Positions 2,811 through 47,785 of a stretch of DNA of 64,000 nucleotides are shown in pieces; position 1 is the stretch's first letter; the number at the start of each line of letters is the position of its first letter. The notes below the pieces were generated by a model. It saw only the letters and a program-made list of their open reading frames with translations. It searched no databases and had not been told where the DNA came from. Position numbers and translations under genes: made by a program. The stretch is from Levilactobacillus brevis (lineage in GTDB: Bacteria; Bacillota; Bacilli; Lactobacillales; Lactobacillaceae), in contig CP032931.1 of NCBI GenBank assembly GCA_003666485.1, positions 2,232,001 through 2,296,000 of the forward strand, written 5' to 3'.

Positions 2811-2993
2811 TTAGCCGTGAGTGGAGCGAAACTAGGCTCAGCCGGGGAATTTAGCAGCGTCCCTGGCTGGTAAATTGGTGACTTTGAAACGCGGTCTTTG
2901 CGGTTCAAAGCAAGCCACGAGACCGCCCTTTGGCTCGGGGCGTCCTCCCCCAGCGTTCCAGCCTAGCTTTCGCGCAACGGTAAGGCGACCAGC
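2811..2993 (-). repeat. Structured dispersed repeat, family 1, copy A
   Basis: Copy in reverse orientation, so its presumed sense strand is minus, the same as the upstream dUTPase operon whose 3' end it follows. Closing stem: GCGAAACTAGGCT (2825-2837) against AGCCTAGCTTTCGC (2961-2974). The stem sequence differs from other copies but still pairs. The invariant loop appears as GACCGCCCTTTGGC, and the terminus is AAGGCGACCAGC. It is one of the more diverged copies. Confidence 0.8.
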
Positions 2994-3022
2994 CCTAGCA
3001 GCCGCAGACACTGAGTTGACGC

Positions 3023-3565
3023 CTAGTAATTGTGAGCTTGGCGGTCCAGGTTGACTTTGCGCTTGGCTTCGTAGGCCGCTTGGATTTGATCTTGGCTGAA
3101 GCCGAAGTCGACAAAGCCCCACTTCAGAAATAACCGCCAGGCATGGCGGAAATCTTCTTGCCGGTGAGCAAAGTGGCTGTTGAACAGCATTCGTTTTAAG
3201 ATCAGATACTGCTGGTCCAAGTCCTTGGCCGGCCGACTGTTAGCCAACGTGGTCAGGTCTTCTTCCGTCAACATGATCAGGTGCGTCCAGGTCTTCTTAG
3301 CCGATACCAGGAAAAAGAAATCCATGGCGTCCGTGTACTCCGTTAATAAGGTCTCTGCCGGTGTCTGACCAGCATCCGCCTTCCCGCGGTGCGTCTTCCA
3401 AACTTTGAACCACTCCGAGGTGTTGGCCACCTCAGCGAGTTCGACGTCCAAGGCCACGTAGGCATTTTCAATCTGCGACTTGCGAGACATCTCAATATCA
3501 CGGTCTCGCGTGATCTGCTCGTCCAGTGCGATTGATTGTTGAACTAACTTTGCTAACTCTAACAC
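3023..3565 (-). CDS. dUTP diphosphatase, dimeric all-alpha type (dUTPase_2-like)
   Basis: Expected to split dUTP to dUMP and pyrophosphate, keeping uracil out of DNA. The all-alpha NTP pyrophosphohydrolase metal site is recognisable: E42 and E45 in ALDVELAEVAN, and E76 and D79 in LLTEYTDAMDFF; FKVW follows the first helix as in the dUTPase_2 family. It has 180 residues. GTG at 3565 has GGAGGG six bases before it. It is last of three closely spaced genes (5389 to 3023) and may be co-transcribed with two proteins of unknown role. A related MazG-like substrate cannot be excluded. Confidence 0.75.
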   Translation of the reverse strand: MLELAKLVQQSIALDEQITRDRDIEMSRKSQIENAYVALDVELAEVANTSEWFKVWKTHRGKADAGQTPAETLLTEYTDAMDFFFLVSAKKTWTHLIMLTEEDLTTLANSRPAKDLDQQYLILKRMLFNSHFAHRQEDFRHAWRLFLKWGFVDFGFSQDQIQAAYEAKRKVNLDRQAHNY

Positions 3566-3576
3566 GTACTTCCCTC

Positions 3577-4518
3577 CTAGCCAAAAATCAGGGGATCTGA
3601 CTTGATCTCAAGGTCCGTTAAGTTTTCTAAGTACCAGTCACGCATGAAGGGATACTTCAGTAAGACGTCGAACCAAGAAACCTTTTGGTCGTCATCGTGG
3701 ACCGTTAAGACCCACTCTGGTTGCCCTTCCAATTGGTTGTTGAAGATATCGACCACGACGCCACGGTCCAAAGCGATTTCCGCCCCATTGCCGTTGACAC
3801 CGTTGGTCAGCATGTAATCTTCTTTGGCCGCCATCACAAATAGGCGGTCAACCACACCAGCTGGTAAATCTGCGGCCCGAACGGCGTAATTCTGCCGGTT
3901 AGCGGCGTCCAGCAAGTTGAAGTCCACGGAGTAACCGTAATCTTCTTTTAAGTAGCGGGCAAAGTCCACTAAGATCTGAACGGACGTCTTGACCGTTTCG
4001 GCCGGCACCGTATCGTGGAGGTCGATGATAAAGAGTTGCGTCAACGCGTGACTGTTGAAACGGAACATTTTACGTTCCAGATTCAGGTAGAACAGGGATT
4101 GCCCCGTTGCCCGTTCGCGGTAGTAGACGCCGCCGTTTTCGGACGTCTCAACGCGGAAGTTAAAGGTCCCCCGGTCACCCAGCGGTGTTAGCTGTTGGGT
4201 CAGTTCTTCGCGGTGATCCCGTGATTGTAAGATGACGTTCTTACCCTGGTCGTGTAGCTCCAGCATGCGTGACATAAACAGCAGGTAGTAATCGGCATTG
4301 CTGTACTGGTGCGGAAAAGTCACGTAATCGGAATCGAGCTTAAAGTCTGCCAATTCCGTCGCGGCAGTGACCAATTCGTCCGGGTCCGTGGTCTTGATCA
4401 GCTGGTCCATCAGCTTGGTGAACCGCAGTCCCGTTTCCAGGCCATCTTTAATAGCGTCGTTATAGTTCAATAACCGACCGCTAGTCGTCAAAGTCGAGGG
4501 GTCATTTTCATTAATCAT
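3577..4518 (-). CDS. Conserved protein of unknown function, middle gene of the dUTPase operon
   Basis: Not recognised. The 313-residue product starts MINENDPSTLTTSGRLLNYN and is acidic and soluble-looking, with no signal peptide or membrane helix. Aromatic, charged segments such as FPHQYSNADYYLLFMSRMLEL and DRGVVVDIFNNQLEGQPEWVLTVHDDDQKVSWFD suggest a folded alpha/beta protein. ATG at 4518 overlaps the end of the preceding gene by eight bases and uses its GAGGTGG as ribosome site; a longer frame to 4539 is less likely. The overlap implies coupled translation, and the two products are probably partners. Confidence 0.85.
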   Translation of the reverse strand: MINENDPSTLTTSGRLLNYNDAIKDGLETGLRFTKLMDQLIKTTDPDELVTAATELADFKLDSDYVTFPHQYSNADYYLLFMSRMLELHDQGKNVILQSRDHREELTQQLTPLGDRGTFNFRVETSENGGVYYRERATGQSLFYLNLERKMFRFNSHALTQLFIIDLHDTVPAETVKTSVQILVDFARYLKEDYGYSVDFNLLDAANRQNYAVRAADLPAGVVDRLFVMAAKEDYMLTNGVNGNGAEIALDRGVVVDIFNNQLEGQPEWVLTVHDDDQKVSWFDVLLKYPFMRDWYLENLTDLEIKSDPLIFG

Positions 4519-5389
4519 TATCTGCCACCTCGCCCTCACTCTTGCCTACCAAACTGTTTAAGTAGTCCGCATACAGACTCGCATTGTGCGCTTCGAAATG
4601 TTCAAAGTCGTCAAAGGCATCGCGAATACTTTGCTTTTCGTAATTCAAAATCGTGTCTTCTTTCGACAGCACCAAAATCTTGTCATCATTTTCCTTAATG
4701 GTCTTGTGGGCGTTCAAGGCTTGTTCATCCTCGTCCGCCAGTTTGGTCAACTGGTCAATGATGTTTTGCCGTTCGTCTTTGAGCTTACCGGAATCCCAAG
4801 GCATACTGCTCTTGGAACTGTTTTCCTTCAGCTGTTCGCGCAACTCTGCCTTTTGGTTGTCCCGCTTAGTCTGGGCATCGACCAGGCGTTGTAACTGCTC
4901 GCTTTGTCCGGAAATGGATTCGATCTGGGCAGTGTTCAGCCGTTGGCCGTGCGCTTCTAAGGCAAATGAGTCCTTGAGCTTTTGGTATTCCTTTTCGTCG
5001 AACTTAAACTGAACGTTGATCACGTCCAAGTCGCCGAATAAACGCCGGTCCCACCAGTTCCCAAAGTAAATGTGGAACAGTCCCGTGGTGTATTCTTCGT
5101 AGTAGAAGAACGGGTAGATGTGGCCTAAATAGTCAATCAATTTGTCACTTAAATAGTGACTGATTTCTGGGTGAATATTGTCGACCAGCTCGGCCAGATG
5201 ATTGACGGTCCGAGTCGAACGGGTCTTCTTAACTTCTTGGTAGTAACGTACTTGGTCCAACAGTTCATAGACCTTGCGATCGTCGCCGTGCTGAACCGCC
5301 GCCTGTAGTGTGCTTAAGTAATCGAGCTTGTTGGCGATTGCCTGTGTTAAGGTATCGGCGGCACTAGCTTGTTGTTCTTGATTTTCCAT
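4511..5389 (-). CDS. Conserved coiled-coil protein of unknown function, first gene of the dUTPase operon
   Basis: Not recognised. It has 292 residues with no signal peptide or membrane helix. The N-terminal half is an aromatic-rich domain (HYLSDKLIDYLGHIYPFFYYEEYTTGLFHIYFGNWWDRRLFGDLDVINVQF). Residues about 140-265 are rich in K, E, Q and D and predict a coiled coil (SEQLQRLVDAQTKRDNQKAELREQLKE, DERQNIIDQLTKLADEDEQ). ATG at 5389 follows GAGGGAT. It heads the operon; the next gene overlaps its stop by eight bases. The coiled coil suggests an oligomer or scaffold, but that is inference. Confidence 0.85.
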   Translation of the reverse strand: MENQEQQASAADTLTQAIANKLDYLSTLQAAVQHGDDRKVYELLDQVRYYQEVKKTRSTRTVNHLAELVDNIHPEISHYLSDKLIDYLGHIYPFFYYEEYTTGLFHIYFGNWWDRRLFGDLDVINVQFKFDEKEYQKLKDSFALEAHGQRLNTAQIESISGQSEQLQRLVDAQTKRDNQKAELREQLKENSSKSSMPWDSGKLKDERQNIIDQLTKLADEDEQALNAHKTIKENDDKILVLSKEDTILNYEKQSIRDAFDDFEHFEAHNASLYADYLNSLVGKSEGEVADND

Positions 5390-5552
5390 GGATTATCCCT
5401 CATTATTCTGATGTTCCCTAGCGCTTGCCGTGAACATTTGGTTATATCTTCATGTTACCAAAAAATCTGTGAGAAAAAAGCAGTTTGCCTGAAGTTTTAG
5501 GGGAAAAGCAGGAATTTTTCCTTTTCTCCTGATTTTGCTGGCAACATCCTGT

Positions 5553-5750
5553 GTTGCTGGCCGCCTTACCGTTCGGCAACTATGAGACTAGGTCGCTGTG
5601 GGCGGACCGGCCGAGCCAAGGGACGGTCTCGACCTCGCTTTGAGCCAAAAACCACGTCTCAAAGACGCCAGTTTCCTAACCGGTAAAAACCACCGCTAAG
5701 GGAACCCCCACGGCTGAGCTCATAGTTGCCGAACTCTCGGCTACGGTGGT
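5553..5750 (+). repeat. Structured dispersed repeat, family 1, copy B
   Basis: Forward copy. The closing stem TTCGGCAACTATGAG (5572-5586) pairs perfectly over 15 bp with CTCATAGTTGCCGAA (5719-5733). The AACTATG/CATAGTT core differs from the AAATATG core of other copies yet still pairs. Internal hairpins: GGCCGAG...CTCGACC, CGCTTTGAG...CTCAAAGACG, and TTTCCTAACCGG...CCGCTAAGGGAA. Left half of the B-C composite. Confidence 0.9.
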
Positions 5751-5960
5751 GCGTGCCCAACCAACTCGCTGAATTCAGGCGTCACTGACGTTTGAAATCG
5801 TACTCGTTGCAACCTGTCTACTCTCTTCAGGAAAGTCAATTCAGTTGTGAGACACCAATTTGCCTTGGACTAGCCTAGATGTCACGCTGCGAATCAAGCA
5901 TCGTGAAAACTACTTTTAGTTGATGCGGTTACCCGATGACTAAAGTCATGTTTAGGGCTA

Positions 5961-6153
5961 CAACTACCGTAGCCGATAGTTCGCTAGAGATGAGTTCAGC
6001 CGTGGGAGTTTTCTTAGCAGCTTGCTGGTTAGAAAACTGACAATTTGGAGACGCGGGTTGTCGGCTCCAAATTGAGGGGTGAGACCGCACTTTGGCTCAC
6101 CCCGGCGCCCACAGCGTTCCAACTCATCTCTAGCGAACGGCAAGGCGGCCAGC
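5961..6153 (-). repeat. Structured dispersed repeat, family 1, copy C
   Basis: Reverse copy just beyond the glnA terminator, in the same sense as glnA. The closing stem is perfect over 17 bp: TTCGCTAGAGATGAGTT (5980-5996) and AACTCATCTCTAGCGAA (6121-6137). In presumed sense orientation the second hairpin is GGGGTGAG...CTCACCCC (8 of 8) and the third CAATTTGGAG...CTCCAAATTG (10 of 10). This is one of the best preserved copies. Confidence 0.92.
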
Positions 6154-6195
6154 ACCACACCACACTCGCCCGTTAACTACAAATTAGCTGTTTGC

Positions 6196-6237
6196 TAAAA
6201 AGAGAGCCAGGACCAGTAGGCCTCAGCTCTCTTTCAA
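6196..6237 (-). terminator. Terminator after glnA, possibly bidirectional
   Basis: AAAGAGAGC and GCTCTCTTT flank an 18-base loop that itself pairs partly (AGGCCTACTGGTCCT). A short T run follows on the minus strand. Confidence 0.75.
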
Positions 6238-6269
6238 ATTTTAAGTTAGTCGCCCAACCAGCTCCTGGA

Positions 6270-7610
6270 TTAGTACAGTTCCAGGTATTGATCCCGTTCC
6301 CATTCAGATACTTGGGTCCGGTAAGAATTGTATTCCAAATTCTTGGCTTCAATAAAGCTTTGATACAAGTGATTGCCCATGGCACCGCGCATCACGTCGT
6401 CAGCCGCCAAGTCCTTCAACGCGTTGTGCAGCGTATCTGGCAGGTTGGTGATGTGGTTTTCTTGCCGTTCTTCGGCATCCATGCGGTAAATGTTGCGGTC
6501 AATGGCTTCACGTGGCGCCAATTTGTTCCGCAAGCCATCCAAGCCGGCTTCCAGTACCGCCGCAATGGCCAGGTATGGGTTAGCTGCTGGGTCAACACTC
6601 CGCAGTTCCAACCGGGTGGACAGTCCACGAGAGTTAGGCACCCGGATCAATGGTGACCGGTTAGAACCGGACCAAGCCACGTAAACGGGGGCTTCATACC
6701 CTGGAACCAGCCGCTTGTAACTGTTTACGATTGGGTTGCAGATAGCCGTGAAGCTGCGTGCATGCTTTAACAGGCCGCCCAGGAAGTGGAACGCGTCTTC
6801 AGACAATTCCATTTCACCGTTCTTGTCGAAGAAGGCATTGCCTTGATCATGGAACAAGGACATGTTCAAATGCATCCCGGAACCGTTGATACCAACCAGT
6901 GGCTTTGGCATAAACGTTGCGTACAAGCCGTATTTACGCGCAATGGTCTTCACAACCAGCTTGAACGTTTGGATGTTATCCGCCGCAGCTAAGGCGTCGG
7001 CATACTTAAAGTCGATTTCATGTTGGCCTGGCGCAACTTCATGGTGTGCTGCTTCGACATCAAAGCCCATTTCTTCCAGCGTCAAGACGATTTCACGCCG
7101 GCAGTTTTCACCCAAGTCCATGGGTGCCATGTCAAAGTAGCTCCCCTTGTCGTTGAGTTCCGTGGTTGGCTTGCCGTTTTCATCCATCTTGAACAGGAAG
7201 AATTCAGGTTCTGGCCCAATGTTAAAGTCCGTGAAGCCGGCCTTGCGCATGTCGCCTAAGACACGAATCAAGTTGTTCCGTGGGTCGCCTTCAAATGGCT
7301 TACCATCAGTCGTGTAGACTTCACAAATGACGCGGGCAATCTTGCCCCGTTCCGTACTCCACGGGAAGATCATCCAGGTGGAGAGGTCGGGGTACAGGTA
7401 CATGTCACTTTCTTCGATCCGAACGAAGCCATCGATTGAGGAGCCGTCAAACATTAATTTGTTATCGAGCAACTTGCCGAGTTGGCTGATGGGTACTTCC
7501 ACGTTCTTAATGGTCCCAAATAAATCAGTGAACATTAGCCGCAAGAACTTAACATTCTCGTCCTTGGCCATCTGACGAATCTCATCCTTGGAATATTCCG
7601 GTTTTGCCAT
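6270..7610 (-). CDS. glnA: Glutamine synthetase, type I
   Basis: Makes glutamine from glutamate, ammonia and ATP; dodecameric cytoplasmic enzyme. All signature blocks are present over 446 residues: [68 protein letters not shown] and [16 protein letters not shown]. The length and lack of a beta-type insertion fit the GSI-alpha class, which is not adenylylated but feedback-inhibited and acts with GlnR. ATG at 7610 has AGGGAG eight bases before it. It follows glnR by about 40 bases in the standard glnRA operon, controlled by the GlnR box at 8097-8113. Confidence 0.98.
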
Positions 7611-7651
7611 GAAAATCGCTCCCTGCTATTTTTTAAAATCCAATACCTGTC

Positions 7652-8035
7652 TTAAAGGGGTCGATGCATCCCCGGTGTGGGGCGACCCAACCCGCCTTGA
7701 CGAATAAATTCATCCTGCAAGATCCGCCGGACGTCTTCATCCGTTAAAGGACGGTGCTGCGCCGCGGCCTTCGCCTGGGCTGCCTGCTGTTGCTGATCAT
7801 AGATGGCTTTGATGCCCGCCACATTGACCCCGTCAGCCAGATAATCCTTGATCTCCAAGAGCCGGTCGACATCATTTAACGAATACATCCGCCGGTTCCC
7901 TTCGTTGCGTTCGGGAAAGACCAACTGCTGAGCCTCATAGTAGCGAATCTGGCGCGCCGTTAGGCTGGTGAGCTTCATGACCGTTCCGATCGGTAAAACC
8001 GCTAGTGAACGGCGTAATTCTTTTTCCTTCATCAC
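7652..8035 (-). CDS. glnR: MerR-family nitrogen repressor GlnR
   Basis: Dimeric DNA-binding repressor of nitrogen genes, activated by feedback-inhibited glutamine synthetase. The MerR helix-turn-helix is at residues 14-60 (IGTVMKLTSLTARQIRYYEAQQLVFPERNEGNRRMYSLNDVDRLLEIK, read in parts), with GlnR-type RQIRYYE. A helical linker (DQQQQAAQAKAAAQ) and a C-terminal tail ending GLGRPTPGMHRPL follow; this tail contacts glutamine synthetase in the family. GTG at 8035 or the adjoining ATG at 8032 may be the start, both behind AAGGGGG. Autoregulation is supported by the operator upstream. Confidence 0.96.
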   Translation of the reverse strand: MMKEKELRRSLAVLPIGTVMKLTSLTARQIRYYEAQQLVFPERNEGNRRMYSLNDVDRLLEIKDYLADGVNVAGIKAIYDQQQQAAQAKAAAQHRPLTDEDVRRILQDEFIRQGGLGRPTPGMHRPL

Positions 8036-8061
8036 TACTGGCCCCCTTCAACTATGATGCT

Positions 8062-8089
8062 ATCATACCACCTTGAAAGCGGTAGTCAA
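8062..8089 (-). promoter_or_regulatory. Promoter of glnRA
   Basis: Minus strand: TTGACT (8089-8084), 16-base spacer, TATGAT (8067-8062). It lies just downstream of the GlnR box. Confidence 0.8.
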
Positions 8090-8096
8090 GCATTCA

Positions 8097-8113
8097 TGTC
8101 AGATAATCTAACA
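8097..8113. promoter_or_regulatory. GlnR operator
   Basis: TGTCAGATAATCTAACA fits TGTNAN7TNACA, the GlnR/TnrA consensus, at every defined position. It ends eight bases upstream of the glnR -35 hexamer. Confidence 0.88.
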
Positions 8114-8141
8114 TCGGCGTCAAACATTAACAATTCTTTAA

Positions 8142-9071
8142 TTAATTGTGAGAACTAAGTCCCGACCACGCGGCTACCTGTGCCTGAATCTGCGTGTACG
8201 TTTCCGGGTGTTGCACCAGGTCATACCAAGTTGCCGTCGTCTGGTTACGAAACCAGGTCAGCTGACGTTTGGCATAGTGGCGGGAGTCTTGCTTGACCTG
8301 GGCCACGGCGGCCGGGTACTGATCTGGCTGGTCGATCACCGGCAAGAGTTCCCGGTAACCGATCCCCGTCGCGGCCGGAAGCTGTGTGCCCCCCTGTTGT
8401 GCCAACCAACGGACCTCGTCGAGTAAGCCCGCATCAACCATTTGGTCTACCCGTTGGTTGATCCGCTGGTACAGTAATTGCCGATCGGTATTCAATGCCA
8501 GGTAGAGCTCGTCGTATTGAGGACCCCCATTGTCTTGATGAGAAAATAAGTGTCCCGTCACCTGAATGACCTCTAGGGCCCGGACAGTCCGGCGTACGTT
8601 GGTCGGGGGAATCTTCCCTGCCGCCACCGGATCTAGATGCTGGAGCCGCTCCCAGAGGGCTTGGGGCCCCTGTGTGTGGGCTTCTGCGCGTAGCTGTTCG
8701 CGAATCGCCGGGTCGCCGGGAGCCGCCGCGCCTAATTTTAGCCCGTCGAAAAGTGCCTGCAGGTAAAAGCCCGTTCCCCCGGCGATGATTGGCAAATGCC
8801 CCCGGTCCGTGATCTCTTGAATCAGTCGTTTGGCTGCGGCCACAAACTGGGCGACCGTAAACTGCTGATCGACGTCGCAAATATCAATCAGATGATGGGT
8901 AGCGGCGGCCTGTTCCGCCGGTGTCGCCTTGGCCGTCCCAATGTCGAGATGCCGATAAACTTGCATCGAGTCCCCCGAGATGATCTCGCCGTTGAAGGCC
9001 TGTGCCAACCGAATGGCTAACGCCGTCTTGCCAACCGCAGTTGGGCCGACGACTGCTAAAACTTTCGTCAT
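8142..9071 (-). CDS. miaA: tRNA dimethylallyltransferase
   Basis: Transfers a dimethylallyl group to N6 of A37 in tRNAs reading UNN codons. The ATP-like P-loop GPTAVGKT is at residues 9-16, followed by ISGDSMQVYRHLDIGTAK, HHLIDI, IIAGGTGFYLQAL and the C-terminal ATGIGYRELLP, all MiaA signatures. ATG at 9071 follows GGGAGG and overlaps the glpQ stop as ATGA; a longer frame to 9161 would run inside glpQ. Its 3' end lies only 29 bases from the GlnR box, so glnR has its own promoter. Length of 309 residues is normal. Confidence 0.96.
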   Translation of the reverse strand: MTKVLAVVGPTAVGKTALAIRLAQAFNGEIISGDSMQVYRHLDIGTAKATPAEQAAATHHLIDICDVDQQFTVAQFVAAAKRLIQEITDRGHLPIIAGGTGFYLQALFDGLKLGAAAPGDPAIREQLRAEAHTQGPQALWERLQHLDPVAAGKIPPTNVRRTVRALEVIQVTGHLFSHQDNGGPQYDELYLALNTDRQLLYQRINQRVDQMVDAGLLDEVRWLAQQGGTQLPAATGIGYRELLPVIDQPDQYPAAVAQVKQDSRHYAKRQLTWFRNQTTATWYDLVQHPETYTQIQAQVAAWSGLSSHN

Positions 9072-9823
9072 AATTCGTTGCCTCCCTGAATTTTCGTGCG
9101 TAACGCCACGGCGCGGGCTGGATAGTCCGTAATCAGTCCAGCAAAATGGTGCCGCAAGCAATATGCCATGTCAGCGGGACTATTGACGGTCCACGGCCGC
9201 AATTGCACGTGGGGCAACCAGAACCGGTGCGCCTTGACCCAGCGAATGTCCGGATGCAAGCCCCCCACCAGATGTTGCCGTTTCATGCGCCGGGCTTGGC
9301 GGCCAGCCGTTTTGAATAATTTTGCGTACTCGGCCTGCGGATACAAGCTACGCAGGGTAATGATCGATTGGGCCCGAAAGCTTGAAAAGACCACGCGGAA
9401 AGGCACCGGTTGCTGGGTGAAGTACGTTGCCAGCGCCTGCTCAATGCCCTCATAGTGGATCTTGTTGGTCTTCAGCTCCAGGTTAAAGACGCCCGTGAAG
9501 TTGTCTTGAATCAGTAGCTGAATCACCTCATCAAGCGTTGGGATCTTTGTTCCAGCAAATTCACTGCCGAAGTGGCTACCCGCGTCTAGCCGTTTTAGCT
9601 CGGCCAGCGTGTGGTCCTGCACCAGTCCCGTGCCGTTCGTGGTTCGGTCGACCTTCTCGTCATGCATGATGACCAGCTGATGGTCCTGTGAAAACTGGAC
9701 ATCCGTTTCGATCCCGTCGGCGCCAGCATCTAAAGCCGCTTGAAACGCCAACAATGTATTTTCCGGGCGCGTCCCCTTGCTGCCCCGGTGGGCAATAATT
9801 TGTGTGGGTTGTCTCTTAAACAC
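9068..9823 (-). CDS. glpQ: Glycerophosphodiester phosphodiesterase
   Basis: Splits glycerophosphodiesters to glycerol-3-phosphate and an alcohol. GDPD catalytic blocks are present: IAHRGSKGTRPENTLLAFQAALDAGAD, ETDVQFSQDHQLVIMHDEKVDRTTNGTG, and NLELKTNK. There is no signal peptide, so the enzyme is cytoplasmic (the ugpQ-like type). GTG at 9823 follows AAAGGAATG. It heads the glpQ-miaA pair and overlaps miaA by four bases. The exact substrate is unknown. Confidence 0.93.
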   Translation of the reverse strand: MFKRQPTQIIAHRGSKGTRPENTLLAFQAALDAGADGIETDVQFSQDHQLVIMHDEKVDRTTNGTGLVQDHTLAELKRLDAGSHFGSEFAGTKIPTLDEVIQLLIQDNFTGVFNLELKTNKIHYEGIEQALATYFTQQPVPFRVVFSSFRAQSIITLRSLYPQAEYAKLFKTAGRQARRMKRQHLVGGLHPDIRWVKAHRFWLPHVQLRPWTVNSPADMAYCLRHHFAGLITDYPARAVALRTKIQGGNEL

Positions 9824-10018
9824 GAATCCCCATTCCTTTCACGTTCAGACTTCTGTAGTAAGGGTACCACAACGGGCGCCCAACCGCCTGAAATCTGTGA
9901 GAAAATATTTCCGGTCGGAATCGCCGGTAATCAGGTAAATCGCTAGCAATTTCCGGATAAAACAAGCATAATGGAAGCGGATAACTTAAAATCTTATACA
10001 TGATGGGAGTCGAATACG

Positions 10019-10195
10019 ATGAAGCACTTTACGAAAGGTTTCTTATTTGGCGTTGTCGCTACTGCTAGCGCCGTTGCTGGTGCCGTCTTTTCTTTCAAGA
10101 AAAAGGTCGTCCAACCAATCGAAGACCAAGAAGCGCGGTTTGAAGAAAACCGGAAGCGGGCTAACCGCAAGAGCCACGCCGCCCACCACGGTTAA
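10019..10195 (+). CDS. DUF3042-family small membrane-associated protein
   Basis: A 58-residue protein starting MKHFTKGFLFGVVATASAV, with one glycine/alanine-rich membrane helix (about residues 7-25). A basic segment FKKKVVQPIED and a charged tail (EENRKRANRKSHAAHHG) follow. This is the DUF3042 pattern common in lactobacilli; the function is unknown. ATG at 10019 follows GGGAG nine bases away, and a terminator follows at once, so it is a single-gene unit. Orientation is opposite to its neighbours. Confidence 0.85.
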   Translation: MKHFTKGFLFGVVATASAVAGAVFSFKKKVVQPIEDQEARFEENRKRANRKSHAAHHG

Positions 10196-10213
10196 ATCAC
10201 CTCTGACTAACCC

Positions 10214-10249
10214 TAGCGACCAGGACATAATTGTCCCGGCCGCTTTTTT
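10214..10249 (+). terminator. Terminator of the DUF3042 gene
   Basis: GCGACCAGGACA, loop TAAT, TGTCCCGGCCGC, then six T. The stem is imperfect in its lower part. Confidence 0.8.
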
Positions 10250-10354
10250 GTCTTAAATTTCACCACTAAAGGTTGACGCGCGGAAATAGCCAGATTTATA
10301 GTGACTCCAGGGTTTACAAGGACAAAATTAGTCTTTGAATGTCATGTGATCTGT

Positions 10355-10540
10355 ACTGGCCGCCTTACCGTTCGCCAAATTTGGACCGTGACGCTGTGGG
10401 AAGGACCGGTCGAAGCCAAAGAGCGGTCTTCAACCTCGCTTCGAGCCGAAAAACACATCTCGAAGACGCCAGTTTCCAAGCAGGTCACTTGAAAACTCCC
10501 ACGGCTGAGTCCAAATTTAGCTCACTCACGGCTACGTGGC
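10355..10540 (+). repeat. Structured dispersed repeat, family 1, copy D
   Basis: Forward copy in the gap after the DUF3042 gene. Closing stem TTCGCCAAATTTGGAC (10371-10386) pairs with GTCCAAATTTAGCTCA (10509-10524), with mismatches at the outer end. The second hairpin is GGTCGAAG...CTTCAACC and the third CGCTTCGAG...CTCGAAGACG. Both differ from other copies but still pair. The invariant loop GCCAAAGAGCGGTC is kept. No facing partner is visible. Confidence 0.85.
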
Positions 10541-10857
10541 AGATAAACCACTAATGTAGCTGAACGTTGTCATTTCGGCGATGTTCCCGCTAATCCTATG
10601 GGTGAGCACCGACGTAATCGTCATCTCCGACGATTGGTGTGAACTAATTTAGCATTTATAATCCTTATCAGCTGGATATCATCAGATGTTTCAGCCTACA
10701 CCATACAAGCTGGCGCGTTCTTGGCTACAGAGAAGATTACTTCGGCAACCAATTTAGTCCTCAATGTCGCCGTTAGATATGATCTGACAGGACGCACCCA
10801 TTCCCAGAGTAGATTGGCTGGACGTTTTGTGCGAATCACAGTTCACAATGTTTCTCC
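10541..10857. other. Intergenic stretch with no gene seen
   Basis: Between repeat D and the rhodanese terminator there is no open frame with a ribosome site and no recognisable RNA. The expected inverted end (AAGGCGGCCAGC-like) of a facing repeat partner is not found. Confidence 0.5.
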
Positions 10858-10901
10858 AAAAAAAATAGAGCCTGGGCAGCTTGTCCCAGACTCATTTTTT
10901 C
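10858..10901 (-). terminator. Terminator of the gluP-yqgQ-glcK-rhodanese genes
   Basis: Minus strand: GAGTCTGGGACA, loop AGC, TGCCCAGGCTC, then a run of T interrupted by an A. It lies immediately after the stop at 10905. Confidence 0.8.
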
Positions 10902-10904
10902 AAC

Positions 10905-11315
10905 TTAATTGGACTTCTTCGTCTTGCCTTGCCAACGGGCGTAACCCGTTTTCAAGATCGAGATATCCTCGTAGCCTTCCTTGCCCAAGACCAATGCTGC
11001 CCGTGTGCTGAGGGCCTTACCTTGGTCGTACAGGTAAACCGGTAAGTCAGACCGGATACCTGTGTGGTAAGTCTTAAACGTGGAATACGGGATGTTACGG
11101 GCGCCTAAGATGTGGCCCGCGTCAAAGTCTTTCTTTTCACGCAAGTCAATGACCTGTGCCTTACGCATGCCCTCTTGGAAAGTCTCCTCATCGATGACGG
11201 TAGAAACCTGGTTCCGCCGGATCACGGTGATGAGTTGCCAAGCAGCCCACGCGATAATCAAGACTAGCAAAATGATGGTGTAGACCGTCATTCCTGAAAT
11301 TGCTGCAATTACCAA
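10905..11315 (-). CDS. Membrane-anchored rhodanese-like protein lacking the catalytic cysteine
   Basis: A 136-residue protein with an N-terminal membrane helix (about 9-28: MTVYTIILLVLIIAWAAWQL) and a cytoplasmic rhodanese domain (VIDLREKKDFDAGHILGARNIPYSTF). In active rhodaneses the loop after the central strand starts with Cys. Here it reads VYLYDQGKALST, so Asp stands where Cys is expected and sulfur transfer by the usual mechanism is unlikely. It resembles Bacillus YqhL and, as there, is near glcK. TTG at 11315 follows AAGGAC; an internal ATG (residue 9) is the alternative. Probably a binding or regulatory domain. Confidence 0.88.
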   Translation of the reverse strand: MVIAAISGMTVYTIILLVLIIAWAAWQLITVIRRNQVSTVIDEETFQEGMRKAQVIDLREKKDFDAGHILGARNIPYSTFKTYHTGIRSDLPVYLYDQGKALSTRAALVLGKEGYEDISILKTGYARWQGKTKKSN

Positions 11316-11344
11316 ACTAAATCGTCCTTCCTAAACCACAAGTT

Positions 11345-12316
11345 CTAGTTACTCTTTTGGAAACGCAAAGCTAATGAAGCGGCACCAATGACCCCGGCAT
11401 CGTTCCCTAATTGGGCTAAGCGTAACTTAGTTGAGTCACGAACGGCTGGGAAGGCATTTTCTTGGAAATACCGCGTCGTTGGTTGTAATAACGTGTTACC
11501 GGCGTTGGATACCCCACCACCAATGATGATGTTGGCTGGGTTCAAGATGTTGGCCACGTTGGCTAAAGCTAAGCCCAGGTAGAAGGTCACCCGATCGACC
11601 ACTTGGTTGGCCAAGATGTCGCCGTTGTCAGCCAGGTAGAAGACCATCTTGGAGGTCACGCTTTCCTGATTGTCTTCCATTTCCTTCAAACGAGACGTGC
11701 CCATGAAGTCCTTGGCCATATCGTTGGCAACGTGGACGACCCCGGTAGCGGAAGCGTATTGTTCCAAGCAACCGCGTTTGCCACAAGTACATAAGTAGCC
11801 GTTGGGCTGTACCGTGACGTGGCCTAACTCACCAGCACCACCATTGATACCGTGGAGCAGGTGGCCACCAGCAATCACACCGCCACCAACACCGGTACCT
11901 AACGTCACGAAGACGACATCGCTGTCTTTTTCGCCGGCACCCTTCCAGTATTCACCTAAGGAAGCCACGTTGGCATCGTTGTCTAGGATAAATTGGAGAC
12001 CCAAGCCTGCTTGAATCTGGTCACGCACTTGTTGGCGCTTCTTCCAGTTCAAGTTGAAGGCCCCAATGACCGTGCCGTTTTCAATATCGACAGAACCGGG
12101 TGTCCCCATCCCAATGCCTAAAAAGTCATCTTTACTAAATTCTGAATTTGTAATATGTTGACTGATTGAATCAATGATATTCGGCACAATGTGGCTACCT
12201 TCGTCGGTAATATCCGTTGGAATGCTCCACTTCGTCAGAATATCCCCTGCCAGTGAGAGAAAAGCCATTTTCGTGGTCGTCCCACCTAAATCGATTCCAA
12301 TTAAATTCCGTGCCAT
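11345..12316 (-). CDS. glcK: Glucokinase, ROK family
   Basis: Phosphorylates glucose with ATP, feeding glucose not imported by the PTS into glycolysis. The ROK signatures are complete: phosphate loop IGIDLGGTTTKMAF at the N-terminus, GMGTPGSVD, DNDANVASLGEYWKGAG, GTGVGGGVI and the zinc motif GHVTVQPNGYLCTCGKRGCLEQYAS (read in parts). ATG at 12316 follows GGAGGT at ten bases and lies four bases after the yqgQ stop. A longer frame to 12334 overlaps yqgQ and is less likely. 323 residues is normal. The yqgQ-glcK link is conserved in Bacillota. Confidence 0.96.
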   Translation of the reverse strand: MARNLIGIDLGGTTTKMAFLSLAGDILTKWSIPTDITDEGSHIVPNIIDSISQHITNSEFSKDDFLGIGMGTPGSVDIENGTVIGAFNLNWKKRQQVRDQIQAGLGLQFILDNDANVASLGEYWKGAGEKDSDVVFVTLGTGVGGGVIAGGHLLHGINGGAGELGHVTVQPNGYLCTCGKRGCLEQYASATGVVHVANDMAKDFMGTSRLKEMEDNQESVTSKMVFYLADNGDILANQVVDRVTFYLGLALANVANILNPANIIIGGGVSNAGNTLLQPTTRYFQENAFPAVRDSTKLRLAQLGNDAGVIGAASLALRFQKSN

Positions 12317-12320
12317 AACG

Positions 12321-12551
12321 CTAAATACCTCCAATGGATTGGTGATTATTTTTTGCTCGTTGTTCCTCTAACCGGTGCTCATGTGTCAACACGATTTTGG
12401 CCTGGGCAAACGTCGAATCGTCCACGACCCGTGCTTGTCGGAGGTGGTCCAATTCTAGTGCCATGACCTCGATGTCAAATAGGCGTCTGCCAATGTACAC
12501 ATAAATACCAAACTTTTTAAGTAGCTGCTGAACATCATATAACGTTTTCAT
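12321..12551 (-). CDS. yqgQ: YqgQ family protein (DUF910)
   Basis: A 76-residue protein starting MKTLYDVQQLLKKFGIYVYI, followed by GRRLFDIEVMALELDHLR, the YqgQ family pattern. Its role is unknown; it nearly always precedes glcK. A helical tail ends in EHRLEEQRAKNNHQ. ATG at 12551 follows GGAGG at ten bases; a longer frame to 12578 adds MQFHGGCGT, unlike relatives. The stop is inside the glcK ribosome site region, so the two are co-translated. Confidence 0.92.
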   Translation of the reverse strand: MKTLYDVQQLLKKFGIYVYIGRRLFDIEVMALELDHLRQARVVDDSTFAQAKIVLTHEHRLEEQRAKNNHQSIGGI

Positions 12552-12593
12552 TGTGCCACAACCTCCATGAAATTGCACGAGACTTTTCGTTGT

Positions 12594-13274
12594 TTACTGT
12601 GCCATTCCGTGCAAATACAACCAGACCAATCCACCAATTAGGACAATGGTCGCTACCACTCTTTTAATTGGGCTAACTTTACCAATTCGTGGAACACCGA
12701 CTGTATACGCTACCAGAAATCCGGTCGCTAAGCCGCCTAAATGCCCCGCTAAATCAATACCGGGTGTAAACAGATCAAAGGCGATGTTCATCACGACGAA
12801 GGCTAAAAAGGTGCGTGCCAATTGGCGAATCACCGGATTTTGCCAGAAGGATTCCCCCAACATCAAGAAGGCCCCAAATAGGCCAAAGATCGCGGTGCTG
12901 GCTCCGGCAGATAGACTGTCCGAGAAACAAAATGACGCGATGTTCCCACCGACCCCGGCCACCAAGAACATGGCTAGGAACCGGGTGTGCCCAAAGGCCG
13001 CTTCAATCTGCATCCCCACGAAGTACAGGGTCACCATGTTCATCAGAATATGCGTGAACCCAATGTGTAGGAACATCGGCGTGAACAGGCGCCACCATTC
13101 GCCTTGCTGAATCAGCGGATTGAGCTTGGCCCCAAAGGTAATCAACACATTCACGCTGGTGCTACCGCCGGCTAACGTCATGGCCAAGAAGACCAACACC
13201 ATGATCACGATGAGCCCGACCGTCATAAAGGGGGTCTGGTCCAGTCGCCGTATCCGGTATTTAAAATTTGTCAC
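12594..13274 (-). CDS. gluP: Rhomboid-family intramembrane serine protease
   Basis: Membrane protease that cuts substrates within or next to the bilayer. Six or seven hydrophobic segments are visible. The catalytic Ser is in GASTAIFGLFGAFL and the catalytic His in IDLAGHLGGLATGFL. The L1-loop region WWRLFTPMFLHIGFTHILMNM is also typical. The motif reads GAST where GASG is usual, a mild change that keeps the serine. Unlike Bacillus GluP there is no long N-terminal extension or TPR domain, so this is the short form. GTG at 13274 follows AAAGGAAG. It lies between yqgN and yqgQ as in Bacillus. Confidence 0.94.
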   Translation of the reverse strand: MTNFKYRIRRLDQTPFMTVGLIVIMVLVFLAMTLAGGSTSVNVLITFGAKLNPLIQQGEWWRLFTPMFLHIGFTHILMNMVTLYFVGMQIEAAFGHTRFLAMFLVAGVGGNIASFCFSDSLSAGASTAIFGLFGAFLMLGESFWQNPVIRQLARTFLAFVVMNIAFDLFTPGIDLAGHLGGLATGFLVAYTVGVPRIGKVSPIKRVVATIVLIGGLVWLYLHGMAQ

Positions 13275-13289
13275 CGCAAGGCTTCCTTT

Positions 13290-13844
13290 CTATTCGGTGG
13301 GTGCCATCAATACGGCATCCAGTAAGACATCAAATGGGTCAACTGGCCAGTTCGGTTCTGGCGCCTGCTGTGCTGGCAGTGCCAAGGCAACCTTAAAGCC
13401 AGTCGTCTGGGGTAAATAACGGTCGTAATAGCCACCGCCAAAACCGAGTCGTTGCCGCGTGGTCGCAAAGACCAACCCGGGCACGACGATCAAATCAAAC
13501 GCGTTTGGTTCGATAATGGCACCATTGACTGGTTCCTGCAAGCCAAACGAACTGGTCGAAAAAGTCGTCTGCTCATCTACCACGTGAAAAGCCATCTGGC
13601 GGTGTGGCAAAGTGGCCGGCACCGCGATGATTTTGCCCTCGGCATGGGCCTGATCAATGATTGGCTGCGTCGCTAATTCAAAGCCCCCACTGATGGTCGT
13701 CGCTACACGCTGAGCGGACTGCCAGGCTGGTAAGGCAAAGAGTTGTCGGTACAGGTCTGCCGATGCGCGTTGTCGTAACGCTGCGGGCATTGCATTTAGT
13801 GCCTGAATGGTTTGCTGCCGAATTGCTGCTTTCGTTGGCATCAT
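13290..13844 (-). CDS. 5-formyltetrahydrofolate cyclo-ligase
   Basis: Converts 5-formyl-THF with ATP to 5,10-methenyl-THF, salvaging a folate storage form. The family's basic N-terminus (TKAAIRQQTIQALNAMP), the central VVPGLVFATTRQRLGFGGGYYDRYLPQT block with the ATP/Mg site and the tail VDPFDVLLDAVLMAPT are all present over 184 residues. Start is one of two adjoining ATGs. Equivalent to yqgN of Bacillus, in the same rpmG-yqgN-gluP-yqgQ-glcK order. It is separated from rpmG by a terminator, so it may be transcribed by read-through or from its own promoter. Confidence 0.95.
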   Translation of the reverse strand: MMPTKAAIRQQTIQALNAMPAALRQRASADLYRQLFALPAWQSAQRVATTISGGFELATQPIIDQAHAEGKIIAVPATLPHRQMAFHVVDEQTTFSTSSFGLQEPVNGAIIEPNAFDLIVVPGLVFATTRQRLGFGGGYYDRYLPQTTGFKVALALPAQQAPEPNWPVDPFDVLLDAVLMAPTE

Positions 13845-13870
13845 TTACCCCCTCGGTCGATTTTCTCAAT

Positions 13871-13901
13871 AAAAAAAGGTGCGGACTCTCGCCCGTACCT
13901 T
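13871..13901 (-). terminator. Terminator of rpmG
   Basis: Minus strand: AAGGTACGG, loop, CCGCACCTT, then seven T. It begins at the rpmG stop codon. Confidence 0.85.
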
Positions 13902-14049
13902 ACTTAGTTTCACGATGCAAAGTTACTTTCCGTTCGCGCGGGCAGTACTTCTTAAATTCAACCCGGTCCGGGTTATTACGCCGGTTCTTGCTGGATAAGT
14001 AGTTGCGTTCGTGGCATTCCGTACATTCTAAAGTGATGTGTACACGCAT
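13900..14049 (-). CDS. rpmG: 50S ribosomal protein L33
   Basis: Small large-subunit protein (49 residues), [22 protein letters not shown], then [27 protein letters not shown]. The first zinc-type pair CTEC is kept, but only one Cys (KYC) of the second pair remains, since the usual partner three residues on is Glu. Zinc binding may therefore be weak or absent. ATG at 14049 follows GGGAGG at nine bases. It is a single gene with its own terminator, followed by yqgN as in Bacillus. Confidence 0.96.
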
Positions 14050-14207
14050 TGTGGGTAACCTCCCAACTTGTTTAGAATTACAGGCTAGAGCCCTTAACTC
14101 GTAATATATTACCATTAATCCGCCGCAATTACCAGAGATATTGCCAAATATGTTAAGGAAAAATACTTAACAGCTGATTTCCGCCGGTAAAATCGGTGGT
14201 TTCTGAC

Positions 14208-14377
14208 GCCGCCTACCGTTCGCCAAATATGAGACTGGAACGCTGTGGCGGACGGCCGAGCCACAGGGCGGTCTCGGGCCTCACCTTGGAGCCGGTTTTC
14301 TAAGCGCCGTAGCCCCTGCCGCTAAGAAAACTCCCACAGCTGAACTCATCTCTAGCGAACTATCGGCTACCGTAGTG
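14208..14377 (+). repeat. Structured dispersed repeat, family 1, copy E
   Basis: Forward copy, shortened to about 170 bp: the third hairpin and the start of the fourth are merged by a deletion. Left arm TTCGCCAAATATGAG and right arm CTCATCTCTAGCGAA match different sequence subtypes and pair only partly. It looks like a decayed or recombined copy. Confidence 0.8.
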
Positions 14378-14490
14378 TTTGGCAGAACGACTCATTTGAC
14401 CAGCTATCAGCTGTCAATTAACACCAGTCATCCTAGTGATTGGCTAAATCGTGTGCCGACACCAACAACCTAGTTGCGGAAAAACGCCAA

Positions 14491-14676
14491 TTTAGCCGGA
14501 AGCTCACCAAATATGAGATCAGCCGTGGGATTCCCTTAGCGGCGGTGTTGGCCGGTTAGGGAATGGCGTTTTTGAGACGTGACTTTCGGCTCAAAACGAG
14601 GGGCAAGACCGCCCTTTGGCTTGCCCCGCCGCCCACAGCGTTCCAGTCTCATATTTGGTGAGCTGGAGGCGGCCAG
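14491..14676 (-). repeat. Structured dispersed repeat, family 1, copy F
   Basis: Reverse copy following the PBP gene, in its sense. The closing stem is perfect over 18 bp: AGCTCACCAAATATGAGA (14501-14518) and TCTCATATTTGGTGAGCT (14647-14664). The outer part, CTCACC/GGTGAG, replaces the usual TTCGCC/GGCGAA by paired changes. Sense-strand hairpins: GGGGCAAG...CTTGCCCC, CGTTTTGAG...CTCAAAAACG and ATTCCCTA...TAAGGGAAT, each perfect or nearly so. Confidence 0.92.
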
Positions 14677-14701
14677 TTTCATCCCAAATTATAGAGCCAA
14701 T

Positions 14702-14746
14702 GAAAATAGCCGTCGCAACCCAGACGCGGTCACAACGACTATTTTT
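14702..14746 (-). terminator. Terminator of the PBP gene
   Basis: Minus strand: AAAATAGTCGTTGTGACC and GTTGCGACGGCTATTTTC around a GCGTCTGG loop. It lies directly after the stop at 14755. Confidence 0.65.
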
Positions 14747-14754
14747 ACCCATGA

Positions 14755-16866: not shown

Positions 16867-16889
16867 AATCTCTGCTCCTTGTTGTACAG

Positions 16890-17678
16890 CTACTATTTTA
16901 CCAAATTTCGTTGCCGGTCACTATCCCGCTTCCGAAATTTAAACAATCTATGCTATTCTAGAGACCGGAATAGAATGACGCTCACTTGGTATTCTAGCAT
17001 ACTGTGATTCGACTCCAAACGGCCTGCTCCCCATTTTACCAAAAATAAATAAAATATGGGGCTTTTCGCCTGAATTCCCGTCAGTTCCGCCAGTGAATTA
17101 CCGGGAAGCTGGATTTCACCAGGTACATTGTGGTTATTGTCCGCCTTACCGTTCGCTAGATATGAGTCGGAACGCTGTGGGCGGACGGGCCGAGCCAAAG
17201 CCCGGTATCGGCCCTCAGCTTAGAGCCGATAGACCACGTCTCCAAGCTGCCAGTTTTCTTAGCAGCAAAGAACACTACTAAGAAAACTCCCACGGCTGAA
17301 CTCATATCTAGCGAACTCTCGGCTACGGTAGTGAATGTCCCTAAAGTTTGCCCGTAGTTCAGTTGGCAATTCCTGTCAATATCTTGCCAGAACGGTCAGA
17401 CGTGTCACAAGCTCAGTTTAACTGGCGAAATTTACCAAATGAGCTGAATTCAGCGGCTCATCAGAGCTTGCGTGAGTTTCTCGACCGTGGTACGCGCAAC
17501 ACCTGTAAGGCGGACAGCATCAGCAAAGTTAGTTGAGTTCTGAATTATCTTTAAAAATATTTCATGGACCCACCGTCACGACCACAATATAGTATGATGG
17601 TAGGTGGCCGTTGAACATCGGCGCGGCCGCAAGTAATCAGACATTCCTAAAATCGCTTTAAACTTTGGAAAGATTGAG
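16890..17678. other. Divergent intergenic region holding repeat G and a solo repeat end
   Basis: No gene is seen. It separates the minus-strand PBP gene from the plus-strand YfhO gene and must hold both promoters. Repeat G occupies 17138-17333. About 170 bases further, GTAAGGCGGACAGC (17505-17518) mirrors the left end TTGTCCGCCTTAC (17137-17149), so the composite seems to have kept its right terminus but lost the right-hand hairpins. Confidence 0.6.
17138..17333 (+). repeat. Structured dispersed repeat, family 1, copy G
   Basis: Forward copy upstream of the YfhO gene, in its sense. The closing stem TTCGCTAGATATGAG (17152-17166) pairs perfectly with CTCATATCTAGCGAA (17301-17315). Second hairpin GGGCCGA...TCGGCCC, third CAGCTTAGAG...CTCCAAGCTG (one mismatch), fourth AGTTTTCTTAG...CTAAGAAAACT. 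Confidence 0.92.
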
Positions 17679-20321: not shown

Positions 20322-20334
20322 CCGACATCCCTGA

Positions 20335-20374
20335 ACCACCGCAACCTCATCAGCTGAGGTTGCGGTGGTTTTTT
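20335..20374 (+). terminator. Strong terminator of the YfhO gene
   Basis: CCACCGCAACCTCA and TGAGGTTGCGGTGG form a 14-bp perfect stem around TCAGC, followed by six T. Confidence 0.95.
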
Positions 20375-20743
20375 ACTGTTCCCGCTGTTGGTCGCCTGCC
20401 ATTCGCTAAATATGGACTGGCATGCAAAAGTGGATGCGTTTCTCATTTCTGACTGGGCTGACGGCGTTGATGAATTCAGGTAGCCCTACGCATGAGCCTG
20501 AATGGCCGTGATCCTGGGGCGGGTCCTTGATGACCGCAATCGTAGCCGAGAGTTCGCCAAATATGGGTTCAGCCGTGGGAGTTTCCTTAGCGGCACAGTT
20601 CATGCCGATTAGGAAACTGGCGTCTTTGAGACGTGGTTCCCGGCTCAAAGGCGAGGCGTCGAGACCGACCTTTGGCTCGACCCGTCCGCCCACAGCGACA
20701 CGACCCATATTTGGCGAACGGTAGGCGGACAGCAACCACAACA
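20375..20743. other. Gene-free interval holding repeat H and a left-end stub
   Basis: No gene. The left end GCTGTTGGTCGCCTGCCATTCGCTAAATATGG (20384-20415, quoted here in two overlapping views: GCTGTTGGTCGCCTGCC and ATTCGCTAAATATGG) is a family-1 terminus cut off after its first arm. Repeat H, reverse, starts about 120 bases later. Together they look like a composite of about 350 bp that lost its left hairpins. Confidence 0.65.
20537..20733 (-). repeat. Structured dispersed repeat, family 1, copy H
   Basis: Reverse copy lying 3' of the HesB-like gene, in its sense. The closing stem is perfect over 16 bp: TTCGCCAAATATGGGT (20553-20568) and ACCCATATTTGGCGAA (20703-20718). The inner ATGGGT/ACCCAT differs from ATGAG/CTCAT elsewhere and still pairs. 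Sense hairpins: GTCGAG...CTCGAC, CCTTTGAG...CTCAAAGACG, and AGTTTCCTAATCGGC...GCCGCTAAGGAAACT. Confidence 0.92.
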
Positions 20744-20744
20744 G

Positions 20745-20776
20745 AAAAAAACCACCAGCCCAAAAGGGTCAGTGGT
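20745..20776 (-). terminator. Terminator of the HesB-like gene
   Basis: Minus strand: CCACTGACCC, loop TTTT, GGGCTGGTGG, then a run of T. One mismatch in the stem. Confidence 0.85.
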
Positions 20777-29039: not shown

Positions 29040-29528
29040 TGTTCAGTCATCTTATCCTTATATGATACTTGCTTTTGGCCAAAATGCAACCATCTTGCTT
29101 GATTTTTCAGCGGGTTTACCATTTCTTTAGCTTTCGTCGCTCTCACTGGCCACCTACCGTCTGCCAAATATGGGTCGTGTCGCTGTGGGCGGACCGGACC
29201 GAGCCTGAAAAGCGGTCTCGGCCTCGCTTTGAGCCGATGACCCGCGTCTCAAAGACGCCAGTTTCCTAAACGGCATGAGTCGCGCCGCTAAAGGAAACTC
29301 CCACGGCTGAACCCATATTTGGCAGACTCTCGGCTACAGTGATTATTGCCAGCATCGCTCGGCTCAGGCCTTGGTGCTAGCTAAATGTTAACCCACCGAA
29401 GGAATCCAGTAGTGTCGACACAATTATTCGGTGCCCTGGGTCAAGTGATTAGGCGACGTAACTCGTGAGCTTCGGATCAGCATCAGAATAGACAAGGTTC
29501 TTGAAATACTATCGGTTCAGATTTAACT
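29040..29528. other. Gene-free interval with repeat I
   Basis: No gene is seen between the HD-protein start and the end of the methylase gene. Repeat I fills 29146-29342. The remaining 180 bases show no partner repeat and no clear terminator. Confidence 0.55.
29146..29342 (+). repeat. Structured dispersed repeat, family 1, copy I
   Basis: Forward copy, antisense to both flanking genes. The closing stem is perfect over 17 bp: GTCTGCCAAATATGGGT (29159-29175) and ACCCATATTTGGCAGAC (29311-29327). The outer GTCTGCC/GGCAGAC replaces TTCGCC/GGCGAA by paired changes. Further hairpins: GGACCGAG...CTCGGCC, CGCTTTGAG...CTCAAAGACG, and AGTTTCCT...AGGAAACT. Confidence 0.92.
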
Positions 29529-47332: not shown

Positions 47333-47515
47333 CCACCTCCAAAATAATCTCGAGAACTGCAGAAATCTCACTCATAAAAAAATGCGGGAACCTTTGATCA
47401 AACATCAAACAGCTCCCGCATGAAATCCAATCCAAAGATTGAACTAACGTGCCTATCTAGCCCGGCAGCGTTAGCCACAGGGCGAGAAGCGGAAGCCTCT
47501 GCTTAATTTCTCAAC
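47333..47515 (-). ncRNA. L20/infC-operon leader
   Basis: The roughly 180-base leader before infC contains several pairing segments and ends with an attenuator terminator (47376-47421). Bacillota infC leaders are bound by L20 to promote premature termination. The genes, the position and the late terminator fit that model. Consensus alignment was not done. Confidence 0.75.
47376..47421 (-). terminator. Attenuator in the infC leader
   Basis: Minus strand: ATGCGGGAGCTGTTTGATG and TTTGATCAAAGGTTCCCGCAT, followed by seven T. Confidence 0.85.
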
Positions 47516-47521
47516 TTAACC

Positions 47522-47550
47522 ATCATACCAGCTAGGCCAGAACATGTCAA
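47522..47550 (-). promoter_or_regulatory. Promoter of the infC operon
   Basis: TTGACA (47550-47545), 17-base spacer, TATGAT (47527-47522) on the minus strand. Confidence 0.9.
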
Positions 47551-47594
47551 CAGTGTTTCGTGATTAAACTGTTTTATTAGGGCAAACTTGGTTG

Positions 47595-47785
47595 TGCTGG
47601 CCGCCTCGCCGTTCGCCAAATATGAGTTGGAACGCGGTGGGCGCCGGGACGAGCCAAAAAGCGGTCTCGGCCCTCAACTTGGAGCCGACGACCCACGTCT
47701 CCAAGTTGTCAGTTTTCTAACCGGCAAAAACCACCGCTAAGAAAACTCCCACGGCTGAACTCATATTTGGCGAACTATCGGCTAC
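47595..47785 (+). repeat. Structured dispersed repeat, family 1, copy J
   Basis: Forward copy between the infC promoter and the thrS terminator, antisense to both. The closing stem is perfect over 17 bp: TTCGCCAAATATGAGTT (47612-47628) and AACTCATATTTGGCGAA (47758-47774). Third hairpin CAACTTGGAG...CTCCAAGTTG (10 of 10), fourth AGTTTTCTAACCGG...CCGCTAAGAAAACT. It is the most regular copy and a good reference. Confidence 0.93.

Follow-up and report, generated by a model that had tools for sequence, protein, structure and literature searches.

What is repeated ten times between the genes of one stretch of bacterial chromosome, and is its fold kept as RNA or as DNA? The stretch, called the window below, comprises 64,000 nucleotides of a Levilactobacillus genome (GenBank contig CP032931.1, positions 2,232,001 to 2,296,000), whose PBP2B is closest, among named relatives, to those of L. 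angrenensis (97%) and L. suantsaiihabitans (96%). An initial annotation of these letters had described ten intergenic copies of a multi-hairpin repeat with paired changes in its stems. The repeat, termed S here, is about 190 nt long and has two sharp edges, an outer one reading [A/G]CTGGCCGCC and an inner one reading CGGCTAC. T is a diverged homologue of S in inverted orientation. All ten copies were recovered both by a hidden Markov model (HMM) and by a covariance model, all lie between genes, split six to four between the two strands, and the quoted stems and loops, with their paired changes, are present in them. The best explanation, in which we have moderate confidence, is that S and T belong to a unit resembling a miniature inverted-repeat transposable element (MITE), and that their fold is selected as RNA in place, with a cis action in read-through transcripts.

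S and T fold alike, into a closing stem, an inner stem and three hairpins, with two loops that are near-invariant. Two copies folded on the strand listed by the initial annotation gave z values of -5.9 and -6.0, and the reverse strand of one of them gave -6.7. The covariance model was built from 22 S copies; 72 copies from the host genome passed the filter and 69 of them make up the host alignment (A2). In these 69 copies, 24 of the 43 predicted pairs are changed on both sides, and one-sided changes are rare. A wider alignment (A4) contains 84 sequences from several genera and, being fitted to the covariance model, leans towards that model. Pairing is possible in 94.8% of its cells, compared to 73.9% after shuffling and 33-45% in slid controls. 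Double changes occur in 39 of 44 pairs, and the covariation score is 0.505 versus 0.146, a value that none of 500 shuffles reaches. All five measures exceed all 500 shuffles and all slid controls. Chance is excluded as the source of the covariation. The initial annotation had staked its proposal on covariation in a wider alignment, and the covariation is very strong in A4 as well as among the host copies. In other genera the stems differ and the loops persist, the clearest being AGCCAAAGNRCGGTCT and AGCCGATAAACCACGTCT. The arms of hairpin 3 usually contain a double mismatch, but in two host copies (L001 and L004) this hairpin is a perfect palindrome, with opposite versions of the arm. In appearance, one arm of these two has served as the template for its partner.

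G.U pairs are tolerated in a structured RNA whereas A.C pairs are lost; in a DNA palindrome neither kind is preferred. Events of the two kinds were counted at pairs with a Watson-Crick majority, using the RNAalifold structure of each strand, with similar rows clustered at identity cut-offs of our own choosing. The control, RNase P taken from 30 Levilactobacillus genomes, gave a G.U:A.C ratio of 29:1 on the sense strand and 2:12 on the antisense strand. For the host copies of S the ratio is 15:30 when the listed strand is read and 42:12 when the reverse strand is, and the reverse strand folds better in 68 of 69 copies. The expected strand of T was labelled in the script beforehand; it gave 40:15 (p 0.001), compared to 13:16 on the other strand, and folds better in 31 of 31 cases. 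An RNA on the listed strand is rejected by the counts for S, and an RNA reading of the reverse strand is favoured, though not proven, by these sequence comparisons. Because the strand test of T agrees with that of S, the two RNAs would point outward from the unit that holds them.

The same fold could be read at the level of DNA, a reading that we regard as unlikely but not negligible. S and T would then be subterminal hairpins, formed as cruciforms or in single-stranded DNA and recognized by a transposase or a host DNA-binding protein, and their arms would be partly re-copied by template switching. Such an element would agree with the rarity of one-sided changes, with the lack of a G.U preference on the listed strand, with the failure to find a promoter signal, and with the two palindromic versions of hairpin 3. 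It would leave unexplained the G.U excess on the reverse strand of both S (42:12) and T (40:15), the better folding of that strand in nearly every copy, and the two loops whose sequence persists from genus to genus. S copies are found in either orientation with respect to genes, which makes a strand mutation bias an improbable source of the excess. Nevertheless, DNA hairpins may contribute to selection on the fold, and the opposite palindromes of L001 and L004 suggest that copying between DNA arms may contribute as well.

Although 'ten-copy' describes the window correctly, it does not describe the genome, in which the covariance model finds at least 150 S copies, every listed one on the chromosome (contig C1 of five). 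A BLAST search of the host gave 42 matches. The edge pattern of S occurs at 127 sites, 61 forward and 66 reverse, compared to 13 for the reversed control. A replication-strand bias was dropped, the apparent bias being an artefact of partly listed reverse-strand sites. The initial annotation had recommended a search of Lactobacillaceae genomes; at a threshold of E<=1e-4, which includes weak matches, the model matches 81 of 301 such genomes in 11 of 40 genera, 14 of the 81 being Levilactobacillus, and none of 298 other genomes of the class. Three Levilactobacillus genomes (G004, G022 and G034) have no BLAST match, yet the covariance model matches them. Among 77 named PBP2B loci, the model matches only those of Levilactobacillus plus L045 and L055, two unplaced Lactobacillus records that nest within that group. 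Since a true S may also score on the opposite strand (160 and 46 bits at locus L105), the sequence was inspected directly at 17 loci, of which 13 come from the 67 matching genomes outside Levilactobacillus (four genera) and four from Levilactobacillus. The loop motifs are visible there, degenerate in some. Plasmids, phages and viral contigs, searched with one query each, gave no match to S. S or T recurs in the same operon-boundary intervals across many species of the genus, a recurrence that may or may not reflect separate insertions. Gaps within operons rarely hold either; the exceptions are L043, which is weak, and L110.

The arrangement of the copies points to a larger unit. The host set contains 15 distinct inverted pairs of S with a second copy, S', 34-395 bp apart, and many S...T units, and the reversed arrangement, with S facing away from S as listed, was not seen within 1 kb in 61 host sources. 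In other genomes, S is accompanied by an inverted partner, arranged as in the host, at 11 of the 17 inspected loci, although five of the 11 partners are weak (31-42 bits). The whole unit is visible in the youngest subfamily (type I), which has 17 S copies in the set. Its homology extends from about -91 to +527 relative to the start of S and ends in a terminal inverted repeat (TIR), CTAAAGGTTGCAAGT, found at 58 sites compared to 10 for the control. In 29 of 30 fetched TIRs, S or T starts 33-200 nt inside, mostly at about 60 nt (T) or about 93 nt (S), and three units were observed from both ends. A young unit thus reads TIR, ~93 nt, S, spacer, T or S', ~60 nt, TIR. Ten units with both TIRs are 360-753 bp long; 8 bp target duplications are exact in four of them, have one mismatch in one and are approximate in another. 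When colinear matches were chained between the host and L. angrenensis, the latter showed an insertion of 344 bp, flanked by a 9 bp duplication (TCAGTTTAA), that faces a host site lacking it. This compact unit (positions 13945-14288 of contig C34 of genome G030, L183) holds an S/T hybrid, in which the left half of S continues into the right half of T, bounded by TIRs CTGAAGGTTGAAAG. Hybrids of S and T, copies in tandem and edge-only S remnants are common, and a TIR can no longer be recognised at many of the older S copies.

Target duplications have no consistent offset at the edges of S itself, and no transposase-sized open reading frame (ORF) lies between paired TIRs. Terminal inverted repeats, target duplications, a short gene-less unit and a high copy number are the features of MITEs, and all are found here. 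On these sequence features the carrier of S is a MITE-like transposon, because TIRs bound the units, target duplications accompany them and an insertion faces an empty host site. S is one structured end of this unit, paired in inverted orientation with another S or with T. Just outside an S copy at about position 1700 of locus L218, which belongs to another genus, the letters CTTTCAACTTTTAG resemble the right TIR and would make the TIR common to several genera.

The ends of the IS6 family have GTTGCAA near the end and produce 8 bp duplications. The MITE ends share both the distance of GTTGCAA from the terminus and the duplication length of 8 bp, but they start with CT, not GG, and the host has no IS6 transposase domain. 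The host does have 20 IS256-type and 11 ISL3-type transposase matches (L254-L272); the ends of those copies that were compared are uniform and do not resemble the MITE TIR. On these comparisons IS6, IS256 and ISL3 are disfavoured as mobilisers. A search for ISLre2 with the UPF0236 model gave no match anywhere, controls included, and is uninformative. Elements of the IS200/IS605 type and omega-RNA elements have neither TIRs nor target duplications, and an origin of this kind was rejected because both are present.

A MITE could be purely selfish. S and T would then serve transposition only and have no local function, their conserved look being that of young offshoots of a few active lineages. 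The common TIRs, duplications, hybrids and fragments, the absence of a gene orientation bias and the genomes of the genus without a BLAST match would all suit this explanation, which is nonetheless improbable given how the copies have aged. In nine type I units, with row pairs covering less than 70% of a segment excluded, identity is 95% for S and 89% for T, compared to 70% for the spacer, 66% for the left flank and 80% for the right flank; TIRs and spacers, equally needed or equally old, have drifted far more than S. Diversity is 0.015 in paired and 0.087 in unpaired columns of the 17 young copies, a difference of about six-fold, and 0.184 and 0.271, respectively, in all 69 copies. Furthermore, orthologs in different species keep S. 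Between the host and L. angrenensis, five orthologous S pairs have identities of 0.91, 0.79, 0.94, 0.87 and 0.88, whereas their inner spacers have 0.59-0.65. Compared with the 69 host copies, two of the pairs are clearly closer to the ortholog, and in one pair both sides of a hairpin 1 base pair have changed, from C-G to T-A. The S between yfhO and hesB in three sister species is 0.92-0.98 identical, compared to 0.69-0.88 for the inner 150 nt and 0.88-0.93 for the outer 150 nt, which form the end of yfhO, and has a T-A to C-G double change among these species.

Selection on S copies in place is supported because the spacer and TIRs drift after insertion while the stems of S and T are kept. Gene conversion as the sole cause of the conservation is disfavoured, since unpaired positions vary within the same copies. 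The initial annotation had proposed a fold held by selection, be it in RNA or in a mobile cruciform-like DNA. Its mobile carrier, now seen in the TIRs and duplications, and its maintained fold both stand; the strand it listed as sense and the repeat as the whole unit do not.

Several results weigh against the best explanation. Across genera the G.U bias is weaker (90:43 on the reverse strand and 36:58 on the listed strand), and the reverse strand folds better in 66 of 84 sequences. The reverse-strand excess of S is weaker than that of RNase P, and an alignment fitted to the listed-strand model has no G.U preference (55:66, p 0.36). The gene-side flanks of the ortholog pairs are 0.71-0.93 identical, so that S exceeds the inner spacer only; two pairs are level with paralogs, and the 0.79 pair is nearer to a paralog. 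Four of the ten two-TIR units have no clear target duplication, and an autonomous partner carrying the MITE TIR (CTAAAGGTTGCAAG-type ends) was not found between the paired TIRs or among the insertion-sequence families examined. S and T have no preferred gene direction (57 co-directional and 65 opposed among 124 examined). Neither promoters nor terminators are enriched: promoter scores of at least 9 occur in 15 of 87 upstream regions, compared to 16 of 87 in the opposite direction and 13.6% of shuffles, and T-runs lie past the 3' end in 8 of 87.

An independent small RNA gene was rejected on these promoter-like scores and T-runs. A cis-regulatory leader or riboswitch that spread as a repeat is very improbable. 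The branched fold with its near-invariant loops would suit one, and Rfam gave a sub-threshold match to the Glutamine-II riboswitch on the listed strand of the S at L203 (27.5 bits, cut-off 33), the one such match at the 17 other loci. Gene orientation disfavours a leader, however, the genes next to S copies have unrelated functions, and TIRs and duplications are present. The Rfam search that the initial annotation called for gave no match at cut-off on any S copy searched, in the window or at the 17 other loci. For the whole window, release 15 returned at cut-off the L21 ribosomal protein leader only, away from any S copy (1694-1772, 63 bits). Relaxing the threshold to E<=5 for positions 5400-20800 gave three chance matches, all of them outside S.

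The best explanation can be set out as follows. S is one of two structured domains (S with S' or T, inverted) of non-autonomous, MITE-like elements of the Lactobacillaceae, which would need a transposase in trans to move; none was found. The selected RNA would be read from the reverse of the listed strand. Because both RNAs point outward, a transcript running through the unit from either side would carry one sense copy on leaving it. We infer a cis role for S and T in transcripts that read through operon boundaries, where the folded and probably protein-bound element would process, stabilise or insulate mRNA ends, whichever the direction of transcription. The absence of a promoter, terminator or direction signal and of plasmid and phage matches fits an element of this kind.

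REP/BIME palindromes of enterobacteria are structured intergenic repeats in many copies, often in inverted groups. Compared with REP/BIME as generally known, S and T have a much longer branched fold, TIRs and target duplications. Titles and abstracts of the open-access literature yielded no description of the S/T repeat. In the Bacillus cereus group, bcr1-bcr18 are intergenic repeats, of which bcr1-3 are MITE-like and bcr10 and bcr18 have a conserved secondary structure and are predicted RNA elements; about half of the copies are transcribed, in untranslated regions or between genes (PMC3446304). S and T share the intergenic location, and the MITE-like or structured nature of some bcr repeats, as far as the available text describes them. 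Those repeats belong to another lineage, and their description there mentions no paired inverted branched fold with outward RNA sense and no multi-genus range. Transcripts of the Correia/NEMIS, ERIC (RU-1), RU-2, CIR and RUP repeats may carry structure motifs that regulate mRNA (PMC2229807). According to the part of that source available, these too are small, non-autonomous, intergenic mobile repeats. Compared by description and common knowledge of these families, S and T differ in host group, sequence, two-domain unit and family-wide covariation. The Lactobacillales motifs in the accessible part of PMC2864571 include no such repeat.

The features of the window are collected in Table 1. The ten copies of the initial inventory were all correct; it missed T next to copy 1, the weak T-like piece and the left-end fragment beside copy 8.

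Table 1. Positions of S, T and their remnants in the window
Feature	Position	Strand	Evidence
T, diverged inverted homologue of S	2536..2746	- (RNA-like strand)	T HMM 192 bits; strand from G.U test on T
S copy 1, paired with T at 2536	2807..2992	+ (RNA-like strand, reverse of earlier listing)	HMM, covariance model, strand test
S copy 2, left member of pair	5557..5750	-	HMM, pair analysis, covariance model
S copy 3, right member of pair with copy 2; ortholog in L. angrenensis	5963..6152	+	HMM, pair analysis, ortholog comparison
Degraded left TIR (ACTAAAGGTTG) of unit holding copy 4	10264..10280	+	
S copy 4, youngest (type I) subfamily	10356..10539	-	HMM, covariance model
S copy 5, most of hairpin 2 missing; orthologous S in L. 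angrenensis and L. suantsaiihabitans	14208..14376	-	HMM, ortholog comparison
S copy 6, right member of pair with copy 5	14487..14676	+	HMM, pair analysis, covariance model
S copy 7	17138..17332	-	Folding, HMM, covariance model
Inverted copy of S outer edge; probable remnant, right end of copy 7 unit	17503..17518	.	
Left-end S fragment (model positions 2-39), remnant of copy 8 partner	20389..20425	-	E 0.0044
S copy 8	20537..20732	+	HMM, covariance model
S copy 9; L. angrenensis has just two S edges at same site	29146..29342	-	HMM, covariance model
S copy 10, between infC and thrS	47597..47787	-	HMM, covariance model
Weak T-like fragment, tentative	57432..57564	-	T HMM 31 bits

Two other repeats lie in the window. 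A separate 121 nt repeat is present in two copies, 96% identical, at 23866-23986 and 24137-24257 between mltG and pheT, and part of it is also found at the same site in L. angrenensis. A short tandem repeat with a 15 bp unit (TGGTTCTGCTTCTTG) occupies 63206-63319, inside a long reverse-strand ORF (61007-63973).

Counting G.U against A.C events, with RNase P as the control, is a simple way to ask whether selection on the hairpins of a repeat acts on RNA or on DNA. S and T look like a large structured RNA class, missing from Rfam, in bacteria used for food. They provide a rare test case of a selfish repeat becoming a maintained RNA element, since each copy of S can be set against its own drifting spacer and TIRs. 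It is possible, if only tentatively proposed, that a branched RNA module, spread by a mobile element, now forms at least 150 cis sites across the genome, each preserved by selection at its point of insertion, and that its doubling in inverted orientation has given the Lactobacillaceae a direction-independent RNA punctuation of their operon boundaries.

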